DNA of 64,000 bases from Closterium sp. NIES-65. Its lineage: Eukaryota > Streptophyta > Zygnematophyceae > Desmidiales > Closteriaceae. The DNA is taken from positions 524,501 through 588,500 of the forward strand of contig CANXME010000387.1 of NCBI GenBank assembly GCA_948144175.1, read 5' to 3'. Below, piece by piece: positions 5,488 through 64,000 of this stretch. A program made the position numbers and the translations under genes. Position 1 is the first letter of the stretch. Every line of letters begins with the position of its first letter. The notes beneath the pieces were generated by a model. That model had not been told where the DNA came from and did no database searches. It was given only the letters and a program-made list of their open reading frames with translations.

Positions 5488-8400
5488 TCAAGAGGAGAGC
5501 AAGTGAGGCAAGACAGGCACAAGACCCAGCTGGGTGCAAAAGCGCTGATGGTCACAAGGCGCGAGTGCCTTGGTGAACACATCAGCAGTGTTGGCCTCAG
5601 AGGCCACGTACGCAAGTCGCAACTGACCACGCTGCTGCAGCTCACGAGCAAGGAAGTAGCGGAGAGCAATGTGCTTCGTTCTGTGCTCCAAGCGCTGCTC
5701 TCGACACAAGGCCAGCATGGCCTTGTTGTCTACGTACAGCACTGGAGGAGAACGAGGCGGCTCTCCAAGGTCAGTCAGCAGGTAGGTGAGCCAGCGAAGC
5801 TCCTGTGCAGCCATGGCCCCGGCGTAGATCTCAGCCTCACAACTGGAGCCGAGAACCGAAGACGAGCGAGTAGACCGCCACGAGACAGAGCCGGAACCAA
5901 GGCTGAAGGTGTAACCCTGTGACGACCGCTGCGTAGCCTGGTCGTCAGCCCAAGAAGCGTCCGCGTGGCCGGTAAGGACCACTGGACTCCGCCCTCCAAG
6001 CACTAGCCCCATGCCCGACGTGCTGCACAGGTAGCGCAATACCCTCTTCGCTGCAGCCATGTGCTCCGGTCTGTGTCTCCCAGGAGCAACATAGCGAGCA
6101 AGAATGCTCAGAGGGTATGCAAGGTCAGGTCGTGCGCAGGTCATCAGGTACATGAGGCAGCCAACAAGCTCTGCATACGGACCACTCGACTCTACGGACT
6201 CATCCGAAGGCAGAGCTGAGAGTGAGTGGCGAGTAGGCAGAGGAGTGGCCTGAGGCGAGGAGTACGTGAAGCCGAAGCGCTGAAGGACCTGCTGCACCAT
6301 GTGTGACTGAGTCAAGGTAATGGTGCGGCGTGCTCTGTCCCGAGTGATCTGCAAGCCAAGGTAGCTGCGCAGTTCACCCAGGTCTGTGCACGTGTGTCTC
6401 TTCAGCAGCTCGGACTTCACGTAGGCGAGTCCAGCAGTGTCTGCTGTGGCAAAGACCAAGTCGTCGACGTACACGAGGATGTAGAACGGCGGCAGGGAAG
6501 TGTCGGTGCGAAGAAACAGCGACGGGTCAGCAGTAGAAGGAGCAAACCCAAGAGCCGCAAGCGTAGTCCTCAGTGTGTCGTGCCACTCACGCGGTGCCTG
6601 GCGGAGACCGTAGACTGGCCGTCGGAGGCTCCACTGGGTGCCAGGAGGGAAAGTCCCAGTGAAGCCAGGTGGACGGCGCAGCCAGATCTCCTCGTGCAGG
6701 CTACCCTGCAAGAACGCAGTGCTGAAGTCGAGAGAGTGAAGCTCGTAGTCGCGCTGAGCGGCTATGTGCAGCAGCACCCGAAGAGTAGTCATCTTCGGGG
6801 TGGGAGAGAAGGTCTGAAAGTAGTCAACTCCCTGCCGCTGACTGAAGCCACGAGCAACGTACCGTGCCTTGAAGACAGGTGGAGAGCCCGGCGGCCGCTT
6901 CACCCTGAAGATCCACATGCCACTGACGATGTTCGCCCCAGGAGGGGGAACCGCGTCAACGTAGGTGCCTATGGACTTCCAGAAAGCCATCTCTGCATCC
7001 ATAGCTGCCTGCCACTGAGAGGAGTAGGGACCCTCTACGGCCTCCGCGTAAGAACGCGGAGTCGGGATGTCTAGTGCATCCGGGTCTCCCTCAGGGGCAA
7101 GCAGTATAGACGTGAGATGAGGTGAAGCAGCCGCTAGACACTGTAACTCCTCCTGCCTGTCCTCTAGGACGTCCGTGCCAAGAGCACACTCACCCCCGAC
7201 GGACGGAGGACAGACAGACGCAGACTCAGCAACAAGACGAGCAGCGTAGTCGAGACGACAGCGAGCAGCAAAGTCGACGAGCTCAGCGACTAGAGCAGAC
7301 GCAGCAGTGGACTCAAAAGAGGGGTCAGTGACGACAGTAGCAAGCAGACGCGTGACAGTAGGACTGGCAGCACGAAGAGAGTCCGACCCAAGGTCGGCAA
7401 GCGCAGGAAGAGAGGACTCAGGAGGAGAAGGCAAAGGGGCACGCAGAGGAGCAGTGGACGGACGCAAAGACATCCGGTGCGTGCCAGGGACAGGAGGAGG
7501 ACGCTGACGCGAACTGCGACCACTAGCGCGAGCAGTGCGAACAGGCGACGCGGGACGAGACGCAGGCTCACGACGCTCAGCAAGACCTCCAGTAGGACCA
7601 GTGTAAGGAGAGGGAGCAGGCAGTGGAGAGGAAGGCTCCAGCAGGGACTGCGACTGGACAGGCGGTGGACCCTCTACTGGAGGAGAAAGACCAAGAACGT
7701 GCTGCAGGAGCGGAACGAAGTACGGCCGAGGCCGCGCGGCAGCTCCAGACGCAGCAGGGACAGCACCAGCACCCTCAGCGACAACACCAGCGCCACCCAC
7801 ACCTCCAGCGGCAGGACCAACAGCAGTAGGCTCAGCACCAGCGCCCTCAGCAGCTCCAGCTCCAGGAGGACCCGCAGGTCCAGCAGCTCCGGGACCGGCA
7901 GCACCCGCACCCTCGACGGTCGAAGAAGCTCCCGCTCTAGCTCCAGCAGCACCTCCAGACTCAGCAGCACGCCTCCAGCGGCGAGCGAACCACTCGCGCA
8001 GCTCCTGTGGAGAGAGGGGCTCCCGGCGAGACGCAGCAGCAGGAGAAACCCCAGGCTCAGCAGCTCCAGACGCAGCACCCCCAGGCTCAGCAGCTCCCAG
8101 CTCAGCACCCCCAGGCTCAGCAGCTCCCGACCCAGCACCCCCAGACCCAGCACCTCCAGGCACAGCACCCCTCGGCTCAGCACCCCCAGGCTCCGCACCC
8201 TCCGCAGTAGCACCCTCAGTCCCAGCACCCCCAGTAGTAGCACCCCCAGGCTCAGCACCCCCGCGCACAGCACCCCCAGAGTCAGCACCCCCAGGCTCAG
8301 CACCCGCAGCAGCACCAGAGTCACCAGTAACCTCGACCGGGTCAACGGTGTCTACCTGGGAGACACCTGAGGGGGCAGGAACTTGAGGGGGGAGGGGGTC

Positions 8401-11415: not shown

Positions 11416-12378
11416 GCAGTAGGGAAAGAGCTCGCAGTGTCAGTGGGACTGTGCTCACCAGGCAGGGCAGGTCGTGCAGCTATGCAGAAAGGCGGCTCAG
11501 CGACCGGGCGGCTCGGGTGCACAGCGGCTCGGCTCCCGGGCGGCTCGGCGGCTGGGCGGCTCGGGCGCAGGGCGGCTCGGCTCCCGGGCGGCTCGGCGGC
11601 TGGGCGGCTCGGGTGCAGGGCGGCTCGGCTCCCGGGCGGCTCGGCGGCAGGGCGGCTCGGGTCCCGGGCGGCTCGGCGTTGGGCGGCTCGGCTCCCGGGC
11701 GGTTCGGCTGATGGGGCGGCTCGGCTGGGAGATGCAGGGGCGGGGCCGTCAGGTGCAGCGGCGAGTCGACCTGTGCAGTGGCGGGCCGGCAGGTGCAGCG
11801 GCGGGCCGGCAAGTGCAGCGGCTGGCCGGCAGGTGCAGCGGCGGGCCGGCAGGTGCAGGCGGCGGGCCGTAGGGTGCAGCGGCGGGCCGTAGGGTGCCGC
11901 GGCGGGCCGGCAGGTGCAGCGGCGGGGCCGTCAGGTGAAGCGGCGGGCCGCTGGGTGCAGCGGCGGGCCGGCAGGTGCAGCGGCGGGCCGGCAGGAGCAG
12001 CGGCGGGCCGGCAGGAGCAGCGGCGGGGCCGTCAGGTGAGGCGGCGGGCCGGCAGGAGCAGCGGCGGGCCGACAGGAGCAGCGGCGGGGCCGTCAGAGGC
12101 GGCGGGCCGTAAGGTGCAGCGGCGGGCCGTAGGGTGCAGCGGCGGGGCCGTCAGAGGCGGCGGCGGGGCCGCGGCAGTAGAGGCGGGGCCGCGTCAGGGG
12201 AGGCGGCGGGGCCGCGTCAGGGGAGGCGGCGGGGCCGCGTCAGGGGAGGCGGCGGGGCCGCGTCAGGGGAGGCGGCGGGGCCGCGTCAAGCAGGCGGCGG
12301 GGCCGCGATCAGGAGAGGTGGCGGGGCCGCGTCTGAGGGACAGCGGGGCCGCGAGGGAAAAGGCAACCCGAGGGGTCG

Positions 12379-35361: not shown

Positions 35362-35493
35362 TGTCAAACATTATATATGTTGTGCTTGTTTAGGCTACAG
35401 TGGGTTAGCCTATAGGGGGTACACAATTCTAGGGTTAGGTACTTGTACTGATTCCACTGTTAGTTCAATCATTCCTGTTCGTTCATTTCAACA
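35362..35493 (+). mobile_element. 5' LTR of Cop-D (132 bp)
   Basis: It starts TGTCAAACATTATATATG and ends TTCATTTCAACA. It contains TAGGCTA-CAGTGGGT-TAGCCTA, a possible stem-loop also largely present in the Cop-E LTR. Confidence 0.93.
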
Positions 35494-35525
35494 TGGTTTC
35501 AGAGCAGGTCCTTCCTAGGATCGTT
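35494..35525 (+). other. Primer-binding site and hairpin of Cop-D
   Basis: TGGTTTCAGAGCAGG directly follows the LTR. The hairpin GGTCCT-TCCT-AGGATC overlaps its 3' end, with one G-U pair. Confidence 0.82.
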
Positions 35526-55807: not shown

Positions 55808-56892
55808 TTATGGCGATGACCCTCGACAAGACCAACATTTTGCTTGGCCGTGATTGGTTGCAACGATACAACCCGCGGATTGACTGGACGACGGGTGACT
55901 GCACTGTGTGAGTGAACAGTAACAACATCACCCTACCTTGCTGGAGCTCGCCTGAGTCTTCGTCGGTCCGTGTCAACGCGATCCCGATGAAACGCACCGT
56001 AGCGGCAGGAGCTGACGTATATGCGGTTAAATTTCAGGAAGCCGAGGCAGCAGACAGGCCAAGAGATTTGCAAAAATTGCTCGCCGACGTACTGGATGAC
56101 TTGGCAAGATGACATAATGGAGGGAGTGCCACCTCAGCGACCGCATGACCACATGATAGAATTAGAACCGGGGGCACAACCAACAGTACAGCGACAATTC
56201 AGAATGACCGAACCCGAACTGCACGAACTGCAAAAGCAGCTGCATTACTTGCTCGAAAAACAGTTCATTCGCCCGAGTTCGTCGTCATTCGCCGCACCGA
56301 TACTATTCACACACAAAAAAGGGGAATTTCGCATGTGTATAGATTACCGCGCACTGAACCGAGTTACCATCAAGTCCCATTACCCCATTCCGCGAACCGA
56401 CAAACTGATCGACCAACTTCATACAACTCGAGTCTTCTCGAAGATCAACCTTTGAGGAGGTTATCACGAGATCCTAGTCAATCCGCCCAACTGCCTGAAA
56501 ACCGCCTTCCGCACCCACTACAAATCATTCGAATATACAGTAACGCCCTTCAGACTGACCAGCGCCCCCACCACCACAAAGCCTTCCGCTCACTGTTAGA
56601 TAAGTGCATAAACGTCAACTTAGACGACATACTAGTTTACATCACTGATAGAGCACAACAACTAAAGGACATCGAAACAATTTTTAAAATACAGGGTGAG
56701 AACCGCCTACTGAACAAAGCCTCTAAGTGTGAGTTTTTTACTGGAGTTTCTAGGGCACATTATTTCAGCCGACAAAGTGAAATAGACCCGAAAAACATTG
56801 CGACGATTCAAGCATGGCGCGCGCTGACAAATTTGACCGAGTTGCAGAGTTTTTTGGGCTTCATCAACTACGTGCGACGGTTCGTCCCTTAA
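55808..56892 (+). pseudogene. Gyp-3 protease tail and RT, second copy
   Basis: 55808-56857 is nearly identical to 46032-47083, including the TGA after SKINL, so both descend from one already broken element. It continues past the Cop-E target site (LQSFLGFINYVRRFVP). RT motifs are [11 protein letters not shown] and NLDDILVYI. About ten differences separate the copies by eye. Confidence 0.88.
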
Positions 56893-58305
56893 ATGGTGCA
56901 TGATTGCCCCGTTGACCGACCTACTGAGGAAGGGGGTTAATTATACGTGGGTGGAGAAAGAGCAAGCAGCCTTCTCGGCCCTCGAGACAATTTTGTGCTC
57001 GCCACTCATACAGCATATCGCTGACCCACACCGCCCGCTCGAACTAGTCACCGATGCAAGCGACATCGCCATGGGAGCAGCACTGTTGCAGGACTTTCTT
57101 AAACGGCCTTCAAACAATCATGTACGATTCCTGCAAGCTTCACCCGCCCGAACGCAACTACCCGATACACGAGCGCAAAATGTTGGTGATCGAGCATGCG
57201 TTCAAAGTGTCGCGACGCTACCTCACGGGATCAGACGTGATAGAACGGACAGATCACTGCTCACTATAGTACCTTCGCGCCCAACCGAATCTTAACCCGC
57301 GATAAACTTGCTGGTTGGACTATTTGGGGTCCAACTTCTACTACATCGTCACGTACAAAAAGAGAGCACCAAATATCGCTGACACACTCACCCGCCCCAC
57401 TGCCCAAGTTCACGCCATCATACTCACCCAAGCCAACCCGCTTTTAACAGGCCTATTTACCCACGGATATAGTATTGACCCATTTTTTACGCCAAGAAAT
57501 TCGTTGCAACTAGCAGAAGCAAAGGGTATTACGCAAAGACCGGTACCGATCGCATCTGGGTACCACCATATTCACTCCTGAGATAACTGCTACTACATAA
57601 TCCCACACAACGAGGTCATCTCAGGTGATGTCGGGGTAGAAAAAGCGTGACAGCAATTGTAGCGGTACTACTACCGGCGGTGATGTACAGCACCACGTGG
57701 GATCGTGCCCCACGTGTAAGGTGATGAAGATCTCGCGCAAGAGAAAGGAGGGTCAATTGCAGCAGATCCCACCGCCCGTGCGAGCCTGGCAGCAGGTTAC
57801 CGTGGATTTCGTCACGGGATTACCTTCGAGCCCCGGGAGTAACGACACGGTTATGGTTGTCGTTCATAGACTGCTGAAAATGGCTCATTTTGCTGCGTAC
57901 AGGAATTTGATCTCAGCCGAAGAAACCGCTCGCCTGTTCATCGCGACCGTCGTTCGACTCCATGGGATACCAGCCGCAATAATCAGCGACTACGACACGA
58001 AGTTTACCAGCAACTTTTGGAAGAACCTTTGGGAGCAGTTTAGGACCAGCTACAGTCCAGTTTGACATACTACCCCGAGACCGACGGTCAGACGGAGCGA
58101 ACAAACCAAACCATGGAGCAGCTGATTCGTGCCATTGCAACGACCCGACGGCATGGGAGCAGCAGCTGCCGCTGATCGAGTTTGCCTACAACAATGCCAC
58201 GTCAGCATTGACGCAGCAGTCCTCGTTTTACCTGGACTACGGGCCAAATCTAACAGTGCCCATGACGCCGAGCCCAGACAACCCTAACAGTGCCCATGAC
58301 GTGTA
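56893..58305 (+). pseudogene. Gyp-3 RNase H and integrase
   Basis: RNase H has LVTDASDIAMGAAL and NPRLDY-like remnants with a frameshift near 57100. KRAPNIADTLTRP marks its end. The integrase finger is degraded (CPTCK remains); the core has VDFVTGLP (Asp), ISDYDTKF (Asp) and DGQTERTNQ (Glu), then EFAYNNATSALT. Frameshifts lie near 58040 and 58130. No chromodomain or 3' LTR is recognised before similarity fades near 58305. Confidence 0.82.
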
Positions 58306-59370
58306 GGATAACGAGGCAATACTGTAGGCAGCACAACCAAAAAGGGTCATATTGCGCGGGTAAATCAAGATGAGACAAGTGAAAGGGTACCGTTGGCTCA
58401 AACGGTAACCCGAGTAGAATACTTAAAGCAAGCAATGGATATTGATGCATTTGCTTGCGTATTTGTTTCTATACTATGGTTAAAGTCAACTCACTTTACA
58501 TCTCGAGCCAACCATCGCAAGCAAGATAGGGAGGCCGACCTTTGGACTCGAGTCAGCCAAGCTCAGAGCAGATCTCATCCAAATCACAGCTGTCTTTGAG
58601 CCGGGCAATATTAACAAACATGCAAGGAGCTAGCGCTGATGAATAGTAGAGATCAACTGCGAGCGCGCTTGTAGGACGAGACAATAGGAACAAAGCCAGC
58701 GGCAAGCTGGCGTGCACATACGGTTAACACTGAAGGAAGAACGGCCCCGACGCAGCGGACCTCGACCTCAACCTCTCCATCGTACCGGACCCCACAGCAA
58801 CGAGCGCGAGAGGCGGAGCAAAATATGGAACGAGAATGCAACACATCGTCGGACCCAGGTGATATGCCGCGAGATTAGAAATGGGCGGAAGAAACGAGGA
58901 CGCGGTGGCGAAACCAAGAAGGTTGGACTACCGCCGATGGGGATGGCGGGAATGCATGGGCGAGAGAGAGGGACCGGAGAACCATGGGTGGCATGCTATC
59001 AGTAAAGGCATAAAAAATTAGATAGAATAAGGAACCTTGATATAATTGTGTGACAGGGTAGTGTAGAAATAACTTGTAGCGAGCACATGAGAGCGGCGGG
59101 AAAACCGCAAGTAGACACGGTCAAGAAGCAACGGCAGTATCAAGAATGATACTTAGGTGCGCAGAGGGCCGTGTGGCCTCTACTTGCTTGTATGTTTTCT
59201 CAATTAGCTAAGCATCTTCCCAAACCCTAGCTAGAAAAGCCAGTTCAAGCAAGAGCCAACCGAGCCAGTCAGTGTGTGACGAGAGCGTCTCACCGCAAAC
59301 TTGTTACATACAAGCAAGGAATGAATGACGATGTGTTGCTACGCTGCGGCTTTAGTTATCAGAGGCGATC
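58306..59370. other. No gene seen; probably end of Gyp-3 and leader or LTR of Gyp-MT
   Basis: TGTGTGACAGGGTAG (59049) and TGTGTGACGAGAG (59273) are similar and may mark LTR-related ends, but I cannot place an LTR or primer-binding site. Confidence 0.4.
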
Positions 59371-60607
59371 GATGGAAATGACACAAGCCACGCCGGGCTG
59401 GAGGGCGCATGCAAATAGCATTCGGTCGGCAGATCGAAGTACCCCGGCATCACATCGAAGCGACTCGCCCCGCTACCGGACGCCTCACCAGCGGGAACGT
59501 GAAGGCGTGAGGAGAGAAGAAGAGAGCAAGCGACCGCCGGCCTTTGACCTCGGAACGATACCGCCGGAGGCTACCTGGGTACGGGCGGCTCAGGCGTGTT
59601 GGAATGCAAGGACCGACCGGGAGTCGCCGGCGCGCATGCCGGACATGCGGGCGAACGACCCGAACCAGCCGCAAACGGAGAGCTCTCGGGAGCGCCGAGC
59701 CGAGCCGAGTACGGTTGCGCCACGAGAATTAATCGCGAGCCAGCCGGCTCTTGAAGCACTACGGGACGAAAGGGAGAGCCCCGTGACCAGCGTGCGGTGG
59801 AGGGCGTCCGCGCTACCGAAGATAGAAGTCGCAGACCGCTACACAGAGATCTCCGAAACGGGGCCGCCATTGAAGAATCACCTTATGCAGCTAGAAACTG
59901 CGCGATATTGCTGGGAGCGCGACGGATTTGACCTGAACGAGTTCTTTCGTAAGCTGGTGGCTACGTTGGCCGGCAAAGCAGAGACCTTCTACCGCATGGT
60001 GAGGAGCGAAGTGTTGGACGAACTCACACAGGGGTTAATCCGGGATCCGGCCGAGCAGTTCATGCAATTGTTGAAGCAAGAGTTTGTGGGGCAGACGAAG
60101 GCACGACTGGAGGAGTTCCGCAACTTCCGCCGAAGGAAGGAGGAATCCTTGCTGGCTTATTACAATCGGTTAGTGGAATTAGCGGAGGACCTGGAGAAAC
60201 ACGACGAATGAGTGCTGGTGTCGAAGTTCGCCCGCGGCCTAGACGATGAGCTGCGGCCAGTCGTCCGGACGGCAGTGTACGAAATCGGCGCGGATGTTAC
60301 ACTGAAGAAAGTCTACGGCATGGCTAAGCGGACCGAGCACACACAGCGGCTGCTGGAACTGGACGATGGGCCGGTGAAGACTAAGGACTGGTCGAGCTGG
60401 GCGGCGGCGGCTTTACCCGAGCCGGGGGGAAGTATCCCAGACCGGAGCGACCTGCGGAGGTGTCACGCATACGGCGAAGCTGGACATCTGAAGAGGGACT
60501 GCCCAAGCCTACCCTCATGTGAACGCTGCGGGAAGAAGGGGCATCGGCAAGGAGAATGCTATCAGCGGAAACCGGGGGCAGAGTCCCAATCCAGAGAAGA
60601 GCTATAG
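59371..60607 (+). pseudogene. Gyp-MT gag
   Basis: I start at the Met at 59371 (MEMTQATPGW); the open frame begins earlier at 59276. After a basic, Pro/Arg-rich N-terminal part the capsid domain has YTEISETGPPL, then ELTQGLIRDPAEQFM, LLKQEF, FRNFRRRKEESLLAYYNRL. TGA at 60209-60211 interrupts it (HDE-x-VLVSKFARGL). Two zinc knuckles follow: CHAYGEAGHLKRDC, where the second Cys is Tyr, and CERCGKKGHRQGEC, intact. TAG at 60605-60607 ends the frame. The protease frame overlaps in the -1 frame, the usual position of a gag-pol frameshift. Confidence 0.85.
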
Positions 60608-61362
60608 GAAGAGATTCGGAAGCTACAGTCGCGGCTCGAACGAATGCCGAAGGCAGGAGCCAGGCCATGCTAGCCATCGAAGAAGTTGTCGATGATGAGC
60701 TGCCCGAAGACGAGCTGGTGCGGGAGTACGGCTTCATGGCCCACCCGCGGGAGCGTAGTGACTTGGAATTCCGACGTCGCTCGAACACGGTGGGGGAGTC
60801 CAGTACCACGACTCGGCGGGAACGGGCGCCCGAGAGGAGGGAAGGGTCAGCAAGCAACGACATGCGGAGGCACCCGAACGAGCGGATGGTGTGCCAGGCA
60901 TCAGTGCTAATAGCCGAGAAAGGGAGCTTGACGGTAGTGGGCGTGCCGGTCCGGCAAGGGATCATAGACACTGGAGCCTATCACGTCATATTGGGAAGGG
61001 GGCTGGCCAAGCAACTCAAGCTGGACCTTCACGAGATGCAGGTAGAGAGGGGGATCCTGCTGATGACCGTCGAAGGGGGGGACCCGAAGTGGATGCCCAG
61101 CACTAAGAGGCCCGTAGAAGTCATGCTGCTGCCGGGCACGGATAAGGAATGCTGCATTTGGCTGAAGTGCGGGATTTCGCAGTCAGAGGACTATGATGTC
61201 CTGGTGGGCATGGAACTCCTGTACAAGGTGGGGGCAACCATTTGCACATGGCAAGAGAAGATGCTTTACCGGGTGCAATACTGGGACCCTAAGAGCTCAG
61301 TGGGGACCTTGCCTGTCCGTTTTGTCAAGCAAGAGCCGAAGGCAGCTTACCGAGCGGAATAA
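60608..61362 (+). pseudogene. Gyp-MT protease region
   Basis: The frame is open from 60556 but becomes Gyp-MT-like near 60665 (AMLAIEEVVDDEL). It carries the aspartic protease motif GIIDTGAYHVILGRGL (Asp-Thr-Gly) and ends the domain with YDVLVGMELLYKVGA, the usual flap-side ILG-M/W-DFL-type block. TAA at 61360-61362 stops it, but the same frame continues into the methyltransferase. Confidence 0.85.
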
Positions 61363-62400
61363 GCTGACCTGTCCAAGGAGCTGGACGATTGGACCTGGCA
61401 GGAATACGCGGAAGAAGGGACGAAGCGGATTGAACTAGAGGAGACGGGCCAAAGAACGCCTGACCTGCGGGACCGGGTCAGCAGGACCTGGTGCCTCGAA
61501 GGCGCGATCGGCATCTTGGAGCTCTTCGGAGGCATAGGGATGGGGCTGGCCGCGGCGCTGAAGGCCGGCTGTTGTGTATGGAAGTGGATCCACGTGGAGA
61601 AGGACCCGGTAGTGCGGAAGATGGCGTACCATCACGCCATGAAGCTGCTCGAGGAATACCCGCAACAGATCTCAATCTCGGCGATCCACATGGAGGGAGA
61701 GGACGGGATTCATGATGTGCATGACATCACCCGCCCCTGGCTAGAGGAATGTGGGCCGATAGACCTGGTGGTTGCGGGTTGGGAGTTCCAGTACTCGAGG
61801 GCAGAAGAAGAGAGGGGAATGGAGGACCCACGGGGAGCCTCCTTCCGAGACTTGGAAGGCGTGTTGAGAATGCTCCAGCAGACGGGCCGCGAGTTCGTTT
61901 ACGTGCTGGAGAACGTGGACATGGCTGACGACCGAAGAGAACCGGTACGGCTCGCCTTCGACAAGATTCAGTCGGTGCTGGGGAGAGGCGTGGCGGTGGA
62001 TGAGGTGCAGTTAGGATCGTGGGCTCACCGTCCCCGGCGCTACTGGCAGAACGGCGTGTCAGGTGCGGTCTTGCGGCATTCCCTGGCTCAGATGCAGTGG
62101 CCACACCCCCGGCTGGTCAAGGACATCCTGGGGCCGAACCGAATTCCTGCGCCTGTAACCACCAAGGATCACCCATCGCAGTACCAGTGCAACGTGCCAG
62201 GGGAGCTCAGGAGAGCCTGGCCAACGCTGGTCTCGTTTGCCGATGCCAGGGGCTTCAAGATGGAAGGGAACCTGCCAGGACCAGGGATGGTGTAGGACTC
62301 CCGGACGCGTAAGCGGGAGGCGCCGATAGCAGAAGAGAGGGAGCTGGCCATGGGACACAAGTGGGGAGCCACGGCACACCCAGACGTGACGGAGGCCTAG
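61363..62400 (+). pseudogene. Cytosine-5 DNA methyltransferase domain within Gyp-MT pol
   Basis: Same frame as the protease. Motif I is ILELFGGIGMGLAAALKAG (S-adenosylmethionine binding), motif II VEKDP, motif III HDIT, motif IV IDLVVAGWEFQYSRA, motif VI LENVDM (ENV), motif VIII AHRPRRYWQN. A likely motif X, ELAMGHKWGATAHP, lies after the TAG at 62293-62295, so the domain originally ran through that stop to about 62395. The order and the HRPRRYW block look most like the Dnmt3/DRM2 group. In motif IV the catalytic Pro-Cys of PCQ is Glu-Phe, so this copy should be unable to methylate; one base change (TGC to TTC) would explain the Phe. A second TAG at 62398-62400 precedes RT. Methylation of the element's own DNA is the obvious proposed role. 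Confidence 0.88.
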
Positions 62401-62412
62401 AGGTGCGCCGCA

Positions 62413-63285
62413 TTGGGGAGAGCTATGGATCTGAACGCCATGACGTGGATTTTGGAGACGATCAGGATGCACCTGAAGACGAAGGCGGTTCAGAGGGAGC
62501 TAGACGGGAGCTTGCGGTCCCAAGACGAACGGGAGGCCGCGTGGAGGAGGGAGCAGCTGGACAGCATCGAGGCGCAACGGAACGCCCGGATTAGGGAAGG
62601 ATGGACCTTTATGGCAGTAGAGGCCCCGGCGAGCCAAGGGGCAGCGGCAGACGCTATACCGCCAGCCAAGGGACCAGGGGACGGACCGGCCGAGGCTGAC
62701 TGGGAGATAGGGGACGGATTGGGGGCAGAGACAGCGGCCGCGCTACGGGAAGTGCTGAAAGAGCACCGCCCGACCTTTGCCTTCACCCTCCAAGAGCTAG
62801 GGAGGTGCAATGTACAGGAGATGCGGATTACGCTCAGTAACGACACGCCGATCTATTACCGCAAACGACGTATGAGCCCGGGTGACGTGGAGGTTTGCAC
62901 CGCCAAGCGCACGGAGTTGCTAGAGGCTGGGCTGATCAGGAGGTCGAAGAGCGAGTTTGCGGCAGCAACGGTGGTAGCCTTACGGACCGATATTACAGGG
63001 GAAGTGTCGGCCAAGCGGATGTGCGGCGACTATCGGGGGCTGAATAAGGTGACCGTGCCGGATCGTTATCCGATGCAGTCGGCAGAGGAGATATTCGACA
63101 AGCTACACGGCGCGATAGTGTTCTCGACTCTCGACCTGAGGCAAGGATTCAATCAGAACTTGATTCGGGAAGAAGATTGCAAGAAGACAGCGTTTCACGG
63201 GCCCGACGGCTTGTATGAGTGGATAGTGATGCCGTTCGGAACAAGGAATGCACACGCGGTGTTTCAGCGGACGATGGATACCGTG
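62413..63285 (+). pseudogene. Gyp-MT RT, truncated
   Basis: Same frame as the methyltransferase. After a linker of about 130 residues, RT begins TPIYYRKRRMSPGDVEV. Motifs are SEFAAATVV, RMCGDYRGLNKVTVPDRYP, FSTLDLRQGFNQ, KTAFHGPDGLYEW, MPFGTRNAHAVFQRTMDTV. It is cut just before the catalytic Y-x-DD box by Cop-F at 63286, so the rest of RT, RNase H and integrase lie beyond the window if they exist. Confidence 0.92.
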
Positions 63286-63416
63286 TGTCAGAATATTATC
63301 TTATTGTTCTAGCCTGTAGTGGGGTGCTCTATAGCGAGTACAACCCTTCTAGGGTTTGCTATTTGTATCCTCATTCTTGCTAGTTCAATCCTCTTTCTTT
63401 CTTCTAACTTTTGACA
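63286..63416 (+). mobile_element. 5' LTR of Cop-F (131 bp)
   Basis: It starts TGTCAGAATATTATCTTATT and ends CTAACTTTTGACA. The left target copy would be CCGTG (63281-63285). It is the same subfamily as the solo LTR at 45044-45171. Confidence 0.88.
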
Positions 63417-63460
63417 TGCTATCAGAGCAGGTCGATCCCCTTGGATCGATCCTGTGGGTG
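63417..63460 (+). other. Primer-binding site and hairpin of Cop-F
   Basis: TGCTATCAGAGCAGG follows the LTR (one mismatch to TGGTATCAGAGC). The hairpin GGTCGATCC-CCTT-GGATCGATC is the longest of the family (nine pairs). Confidence 0.82.
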
Positions 63461-64000
63461 GGTTACCACCTCGCTTCCGCTGCTACTTTTTCCTCCCGCC
63501 GTGCGCCCCGAGGCGCGCGGCGGTTTTCTGCCCGCCGTGCGCCCCGAGGCGCGCGGCGGTTCATTGCCCGCTGTGCGCCCCGAGGCGCGCGGCGGGCTTC
63601 TCCACTACGTCGCGGCCCCGCCCCGATCGTCGCGGCCCCGCCCCTTGACGCGGCCCCGCTCTACGTCGCGGCCCCGCCCCTTGACGCGGCCCCGCTCTAC
63701 GTCGCGGCCCCGCCCCGGCCCGTCGCCGCCCGTGCGCCTGCCCGGCTCGGCCCCGCCCTACCTTCGCGGCCCCGCCCAACGTTGCGGCCCCGCCCTATGT
63801 CGAGGCCCCGCCCTACGTCGCGGCCCCGCCCTATGTCGCGGCCCCGCCCCGACCGTCGCGGCCCCGCCCCTCGTCGCGGCCCCGGCCCCGTCCCCCCCCC
63901 CCCCTTTTTCTCCCCTCCCCCCCAATTCCCGTCGCCCGTCGCGGCTCCTTCGGGGGCCGCGGCGCGCTGTGGGGTGGCAGGTATGGGGGTGGCCAGTGTA
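63461..64000 (+). repeat. GC-rich leader repeats of Cop-F
   Basis: GTGCGCCCCGAGGCGCGCGG occurs three times at a 46-bp spacing (63502-63595). Then GCGGCCCCGCCC-based units with variable CTACGT, TTGACG or TATGTC continue to the window edge. Gag lies outside. Confidence 0.85.

Follow-up and report, generated by a model that had tools for sequence, protein, structure and literature searches.

A decayed copy of a Closterium Ty3/Gypsy retrotransposon family carrying a DNMT3-class cytosine methyltransferase within pol

Retrotransposons carrying a cytosine-5 DNA methyltransferase (C5-MTase) were described by de Mendoza et al. (2018, PMC5890265), whose text presents several arrangements. A Gypsy element of Klebsormidium nitens, KnitGypsy-Dnmt3, encodes a DNMT3 in Pol, has DIRS-like A-coding-B-A-B repeats and shows purifying selection on the methyltransferase (MT). 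SymbioDIRS-Dnmt3 of Symbiodinium, two copies of which were active on CG in yeast, also carries DNMT3 in Pol with reverse transcriptase (RT) and split repeats. According to the same text, SymbioLINE-Dnmt is a LINE whose C5-MTase belongs to an orphan lineage and lies in a separate upstream open reading frame (ORF), and certain DIRS elements, likewise with split repeats, carry a Dam-like adenine methyltransferase, unrelated in enzyme and base. The parts of two other papers that were consulted mention retrotransposon DNMT3 in streptophytes in passing (PMC12344493) and, without detail, Ty3/Gypsy and DIRS elements of green algae that encode a methylase (PMC6338049). In the literature, judged at title and abstract level, we found no description of such an element in Closterium. 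Here we report the analysis of a 64,000-nucleotide stretch of Closterium sp. NIES-65 (contig CANXME010000387.1, positions 524,501 to 588,500, forward strand; hereafter the window), which contains a Ty3/Gypsy element with an MT domain between protease and RT.

As an earlier note made from the window sequence alone had proposed, the Closterium family is supported, on the basis of the published description, as a member of the charophyte Gypsy-DNMT3 type. It shares with the published account of KnitGypsy-Dnmt3 the Gypsy domains, a non-rearranged DNMT3-related MT in the Pol ORF, split A-coding-B-A-B repeats, purifying selection on the MT and a charophyte host. It differs in its host genus and in its size, being far larger than the "fewer copies" given for K. 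nitens beside Symbiodinium (PMC5890265). The window element is a decayed copy of a large family, and we hold with moderate confidence that the selected MT of this family acts on nucleic acid of the element itself, with new cDNA as the likeliest target.

The features of the window copy were as follows.

58991..59265, + strand: 5' repeat A, sharing 67% identity with the region of repeat A in the related copy L075; approximate, as the true start may shift by tens of bases
59321..60655, + strand: decayed gag with CCHC knuckles at about 60461-60559, from ORFs, the Pfam zf-CCHC match and tblastn of P0091 and P0093 over 59855-60652
60868..61335, + strand: aspartic protease domain (IIDTGA) in frame +1; Pfam gag-asp_proteas and Asp_protease_2 below cut-offs, 44-79% identity to relatives
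61360..61362, + strand: in-frame stop TAA in the interval between protease and MT
61504..62520, + strand: C5-cytosine MT domain of the DNMT3 class
62293..62295, + strand: in-frame stop TAG inside the MT
62398..62400, + strand: in-frame stop TAG directly before motif X
62761..63288, + strand: N-terminal part of Ty3/Gypsy RT; Pfam RVT_1 at 1.8e-11 with the match from about 63013, and P0092 and P0095 align up to 63297
63286..64000, + strand: nested later insertion, outside the element, which opens with an LTR (long terminal repeat)-like repeat and ends the element in the window

Protease, MT and RT lie in a single register of frame +1 (60556-63309). Only three stops were found in its 918 codons against 33 expected, and three or fewer occurred in 0 of 2,000 first-order Markov sequences. 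Third-position G+C was similar in the three domains (protease 0.70, MT 0.75, RT 0.71). The MT motifs were located as I (ELFGGIG, 61519), IV (GWEFQ, 61777-61791), VI (ENV, 61909-61917), VIII (AHRPRRYW, 62023-62046) and X (LGRAMDLN, 62413-62436), and the RT motif CGDYRGLN was present in the same frame. Thus, the single frame from protease through motifs I, IV, VI and VIII into RT, as read in the earlier note, was borne out as a register, but this frame is not open, and motif IV has lost its cysteine: phenylalanine replaces the catalytic residue, and one following residue is gone. The end of the MT region, previously set at 62400, had to be moved, since the domain runs to about 62520 and motif X lies beyond the former limit. 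The gag region, whose start ATG was chosen by eye, is damaged: it contains TGA at 60209 and TAG at 60605, and the reading frame changes near 60650, ahead of pol. Because of the three in-frame pol stops, the loss of the catalytic cysteine, the broken gag and the truncation of RT by the insertion, the window copy is dead and cannot be active.

The class of the MT was examined by profile and fold comparisons. The window MT alone gave no match to Pfam PF00145, whereas it reached DNMT3B in the PDB with an E value of 2.5e-4, and PF00145 was matched by most relatives in three scans (9/10, 8/8 and, for intact copies, 2/2). The expected match to the C5-MTase family was therefore significant, albeit through the relatives in the case of PF00145. 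The PF00145 profile and motifs I, IV, VI, VIII and X, in this order, were present in most of the relatives and in both intact copies that were scanned. Profile comparison gave 2e-26 for DNMT3A, 7e-11 for DRM2, 1e-7 for HhaI and 5e-7 for DNMT2, and in the fold comparison ranks 1 to 32 were all DNMT3, with HhaI just 1.6 Z below. Hence, by profile and fold, DNMT3 is the C5-MTase family nearest to the element MT. DNMT3A/3B and plant DRM2 are its closest named solved relatives by sequence, and DNMT3 also by fold. Unlike in DRM, the motif order is not rearranged: the order I-IV-VI-VIII-X was kept in the relatives, and the DRM-type circular permutation was not found in them. The Closterium MT also differs from DNMT3A/3B and DRM2 in that no companion chromatin domains were seen with it and in having Glu-Cys where they have Pro-Cys. 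A bacterial or phage origin was considered and set aside: phage C5-MTases showed 24-36% identity (21 records), yet profile and fold favour DNMT3. A Pfam match of the MT segment to TIP120 (E 0.022, below cut-off) was taken as chance.

The family was surveyed by searching the assembly (874 Mb, 2,400 contigs) with the window MT as the query. At least 128 scored MT matches, the window copy among them, were obtained from 1,303 first-look candidates. As at-least figures, such counts are low, whereas they are biased upward in that some matches probably represent allelic or duplicate contigs, as with L071 and L072, which are identical across 3.9 kb. Thirteen of the 128 lie in open frames of at least 2,000 codons, 12 of them without a stop within the match. 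Intact copies contain a single ORF of about 2,100 codons that encodes, in this order, gag-CCHC, protease, MT, RT, RNase H and an integrase of the DDE type. For the ORFs of two copies, L073 and L074, the Pfam order was zinc knuckle, aspartic protease, DNA_methylase, RVT_1, RNase H, integrase H2C2 and rve, with RVT_1, RNase H, H2C2 and rve above cut-off and zf-CCHC and the aspartic protease below.

The repeats were clearest in L074, in which A1 (742-1111) and B1 (7420-7597) are followed by A2 (7597-7966) and B2 (7964-8141), giving an A-ORF-B-A-B layout with the first ATG past A at 1157. The two A repeats differ at one position in 370 and the two B repeats at one in 178, and this near identity suggests that L074 is a young insertion. 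It has the ends TGTC...GACA and is flanked on both sides by the 4-bp target duplication GGGC. L075, with an MT that shares 81% identity with that of the window, has a degenerate form of the same layout. The A-coding-B-A-B repeats were thus seen in two of the three copies examined (L074 and L075), and in the window copy the 5' A is recognisable. In the third copy, L073 (G000:C1072:284150-293649, reverse strand), only A-ORF-B was observed, again with TGTC...GACA ends and with its own 4-bp duplication, CACG, while the second A-B is missing. This could reflect the integration of a cDNA of one unit or a precise loss of the second unit. The tyrosine recombinase typical of DIRS elements was not found; instead, the same ORF holds an rve DDE integrase, and the insertions have 4-bp target duplications, in which the family is unlike SymbioDIRS-Dnmt3 with its tyrosine recombinase and DIRS backbone as described (PMC5890265). 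A candidate tRNA-like primer site at 59357 of the window (TATCAGAG) was dropped; L074 is without it.

We then asked how regularly the MT accompanies RT. Among the best-scoring 76 of 150 RT matches (89-100% identity to L074), 65 had a scored MT match at the expected spacing; the other 11 had none among the 128 scored MT matches, which does not show that the MT is absent from them. The remaining 74 RT matches include one partial match at 90% identity. Six places upstream of RT copies of lower identity (73-76%) were also sampled, and each holds an open MT (tblastn, 48-57% identity; the stretches of L077 and L078 are incomplete at their ends), five of them with ECQ and one with ECE in motif IV. 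Relatives in protein searches were mostly from Closterium (13 of 14 and 35 of 36 proteins), representing strains NIES-53, NIES-54, NIES-65, NIES-68 and Naga37s-1. That other copies carry the MT segment was accordingly upheld. These data also bear on the explanation that an MT gene fell by chance into one copy or that the assembly is chimeric, which might be suspected from the dead state of the window copy. With the arrangement in proteins from five strains, the copy number, the RT-MT spacing, the frame statistics and the selection described below, this explanation was refuted. Two equal-scoring RT copies 5,074 bases apart were also observed (G000:C387:928800-929342 and 933874-934416), perhaps in tandem.

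Selection was estimated by Nei-Gojobori counts on 10 copies, listing pairs with at least 10 MT differences. Between L053 and L069, the MT had 55 synonymous and 6 nonsynonymous differences, a ratio of 0.03, compared with 0.04 for RT and 0.06 for protease. The MT dN/dS was 0.03-0.05 in all 12 pairs of L053, L063, L064, L065, L059 and L060 with L069 and L071, the best-resolved comparisons. Pairs with L067 or L068 were saturated or nearly so; L067 against L069 gave 0.03 for MT, 0.03 for RT and 0.04 for protease, and in most others MT dS was beyond reckoning. Very close pairs, differing by a handful of changes, were noisy (MT 0.14-0.27, RT 0.05-1.5). The window copy gave MT ratios of 0.12 and 0.07 against L044 and L045, low values that probably date mostly from before its death; the insertion distorts the corresponding RT ratios (0.37 and 0.19). 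Among diverged Closterium proteins, median identity was 50% for MT, 51% for protease and 66% for RT, compared with 26-29% for the flanking linkers. The MT is under strong purifying selection, about as tight as that on RT.

To our knowledge, the proline of the PCQ motif is near-invariant elsewhere. In Closterium, all 26 protein sequences other than the window copy had Glu-Cys in motif IV (23 GWECQ, 2 RWECQ and 1 GWECK; one cut-off sequence was set aside), whereas 72 other sequences, bacterial ones included, had GWPCQ (54), GWECQ (11), GWDC[CTS] (3), GFPCQ (3) and GWPWQ (1). Among the 30 best genome loci, 26 had ECQ, the window EFQ, L045 ERQ, and L049 and L050 GCQ. When loci without a stop over the 310-codon MT stretch were considered, ECQ was kept in 17 of 18, L045 having Arg for Cys. 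Genome-wide, the coding pattern GWECQG occurred 681 times (control 1) and GWPCQG twice (control 0). The GWECQG sites listed use both Glu codons and both Cys codons, indicating that Glu is held at the protein level. The search for intact copies with a PCQ motif suggested in the earlier note therefore succeeded in part: intact copies with split direct repeats exist, but their motif is ECQ. The two exact GWPCQG patterns (G000:C1385:196501-196517 and C1557:583603-583619) could belong to a host methyltransferase or to elements of the PCQ type, or could be without meaning. For KnitGypsy-Dnmt3, the paper text states that key residues are conserved, without the residue itself being visible there (PMC5890265); as far as this text allows a judgement, ECQ may be a further difference of the Closterium family. 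The Glu-for-Pro substitution in Closterium goes beyond what we found in print.

This substitution could mean that the domain is no longer a methyltransferase and that its role in pol is to bind DNA or RNA, to flip bases or to act as a scaffold. DNMT3L is a catalytically dead relative of DNMT3 and offers a comparison. The uniformity of Glu in the 26 proteins and in the genome-wide patterns, the further changes in three non-Closterium sequences (GWDCC, GWDCT and GWDCS) and the Arg of L045 in an otherwise open MT would fit such a role. However, most Closterium sequences covering the motifs retain Cys, the Glu of motif VI and HRxR of motif VIII alongside the new Glu, which would be needless for binding alone, and the class profile is otherwise DNMT3-like; we consider this explanation unlikely. 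A single clade of all MTs with an acid before Cys was rejected (approximately unbiased (AU) test, p 1e-46), and the tree needs at least eight changes between P, E and D at motif IV. We raise, as a speculative suggestion only, that element-borne DNMT3-class enzymes repeatedly exchanged the PCQ proline for an acid under strong selection, in Closterium almost completely displacing PCQ. The result would be a distinct, element-specific active site suited to cDNA that is single-stranded or in an RNA-DNA hybrid, or to other chemistry, in an essential pol subunit.

As to function, the preferred reading is action on the element's own nucleic acid, of which de novo methylation of new cDNA inside the particle would be the likeliest form. 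The MT would be made within the element polyprotein, cut free by the element protease and packaged together with RT; it would then modify cytosines of element nucleic acid, most likely of fresh cDNA before integration. A new copy that carries the mark on arrival in the genome might pass for self, escape defences directed at unmethylated DNA or have its own expression timed. Such action is plausible because the DIRS-borne DNMT3 domains of two copies methylate CG in yeast, as reported in PMC5890265. Several points weigh against this reading. KnitGypsy-Dnmt3, the nearest element known, showed no activity in yeast in an assay that its authors call inconclusive (PMC5890265), and methyl transfer may be changed or lost through the replacement of Pro by Glu next to the catalytic Cys. 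In addition, CpG observed/expected ratios of intact copies were 0.80-0.93 (0.77 in the flank of L074), showing no depletion, and the ratio of the window copy was 0.97 against 0.77 for the whole window. Decayed copies were mixed (L049 and L050, 0.66; L057, 0.72; L052, 0.74; others, 0.84-0.95). Accordingly, no clear cycle of CpG methylation and decay was observed, and CpG depletion was discarded as a mark of self-methylation; another sequence context or good repair could hide such a cycle. As a separate observation, CAG/CTG observed/expected ratios among L043-L072 were 1.46-1.55 in young copies, 1.02-1.32 in decayed copies and 1.25-1.27 in L067-L068, which subfamily make-up may explain.

The undepleted CpG of intact copies would also suit an MT that methylates RNA, whether the genomic RNA within the particle or the primer. 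RNA can be a substrate of C5-MTase folds, as in DNMT2, and the MT adjoins RT in what would be an RNA-holding particle; de Mendoza et al. raised this target for LINE-borne enzymes (PMC5890265). Since profile and fold are nearest to DNMT3, not DNMT2, we regard an RNA target as improbable; it and a binding role are nevertheless serious rivals to the preferred reading. We give still less credence to an action on the chromatin of the host, at the insertion site or close to it, or to mis-setting of host methylation. That action is discussed for DNMT retrotransposons in the text of PMC5890265, but Pfam found no chromatin-targeting domain in the ORFs scanned, and an MT inside pol would be expected first in the particle.

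A profile search extended the group to 86 proteins, many of them metagenomic, including two fragments from the chlorophyte Scenedesmus sp. NREL 46B-D3 (P0071-P0072) and two from EukProt. An RNase H domain precedes the MT in P0029, P0057 and P0080, and an integrase zinc domain follows it in P0034; from these domain orders, a second MT place appears to lie between RNase H and integrase, pieced together across proteins of which none shows both sides. The MT stands before RT in Closterium and, by co-linearity (tblastn, 29% identity, to 61567-62877), in P0044. The RNase H-MT-integrase placement in other, partly chlorophyte, elements goes beyond what we found in print. In the tree, P0029, P0034 and P0057 fell in a clade of 39 sequences (97/92; P0080 was too short for inclusion), and Closterium (100/100), P0044 and others in a clade of 43 (97/89), which also includes DNMT3A, the place of which is unsure because of its long branch. 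One clade of all before-RT MTs was not rejected (AU p 0.08).

These results bear on whether the Closterium MT was captured from a host DNMT3 independently of Klebsormidium, the likeness to KnitGypsy-Dnmt3 then being convergence. The different pol place of the other algal MTs and their separate clade would agree with this, as would the lack of a Klebsormidium-named protein among the matches listed in the protein searches, a weak point since most of these carry no species name. On the other side, one clade of the 81 sequences other than DNMT3A and the bacterial ones was not rejected (AU p 0.33), RNase H was 42-50% identical between the two position groups as against 34% to one other Gypsy element in the same window, and the repeat layout matches that described for KnitGypsy-Dnmt3 (PMC5890265). 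We therefore hold independent capture to be possible but somewhat doubtful; for the two positions, both one capture with a move and two captures into related elements remain. Viral contig scans with P0044 and P0018 gave no relative, and tblastn with the element RT, RNase H and integrase gave none at E 1e-4 in 42 loci (41 on viral contigs via A7 and one on a genome contig via A6). P0020, filed under a Candidatus Obscuribacterales metagenome-assembled genome, has an MT like those of the algal elements and perhaps reflects contamination with algal DNA.

Elsewhere in the window, another Gypsy fragment with RT, RNase H and integrase-like ORFs lies at 56021-58065, about 1 kb upstream of the element, its RNase H being only about 34% identical. 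The leader of the nested insertion (63286-63448) is repeated at 4840-4703, 1122-971, 35386-35523 and 45164-45079, and the insertion is probably part of a Copia element. Short GC-rich tandem repeats recur at 63605-63896, just after this LTR-like leader, and at 281-849 and 12022-12354. No Rfam match was obtained for the window at gathering scores.

These findings address the question of why a retrotransposon carries a silencing enzyme of host type. Klebsormidium, by the published text, offers fewer copies and an inconclusive assay, whereas Closterium has a large family, intact recent copies and an MT held about as tightly as RT, which opens the question to direct testing in an alga that is in culture and whose group is the nearest to land plants. 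Why Glu instead of Pro is conserved next to the catalytic Cys calls for an explanation from C5-methyltransferase chemistry. Finally, the apparent second place of the MT, between RNase H and integrase in elements of which some are chlorophyte, points to two captures or to a single mobile module.
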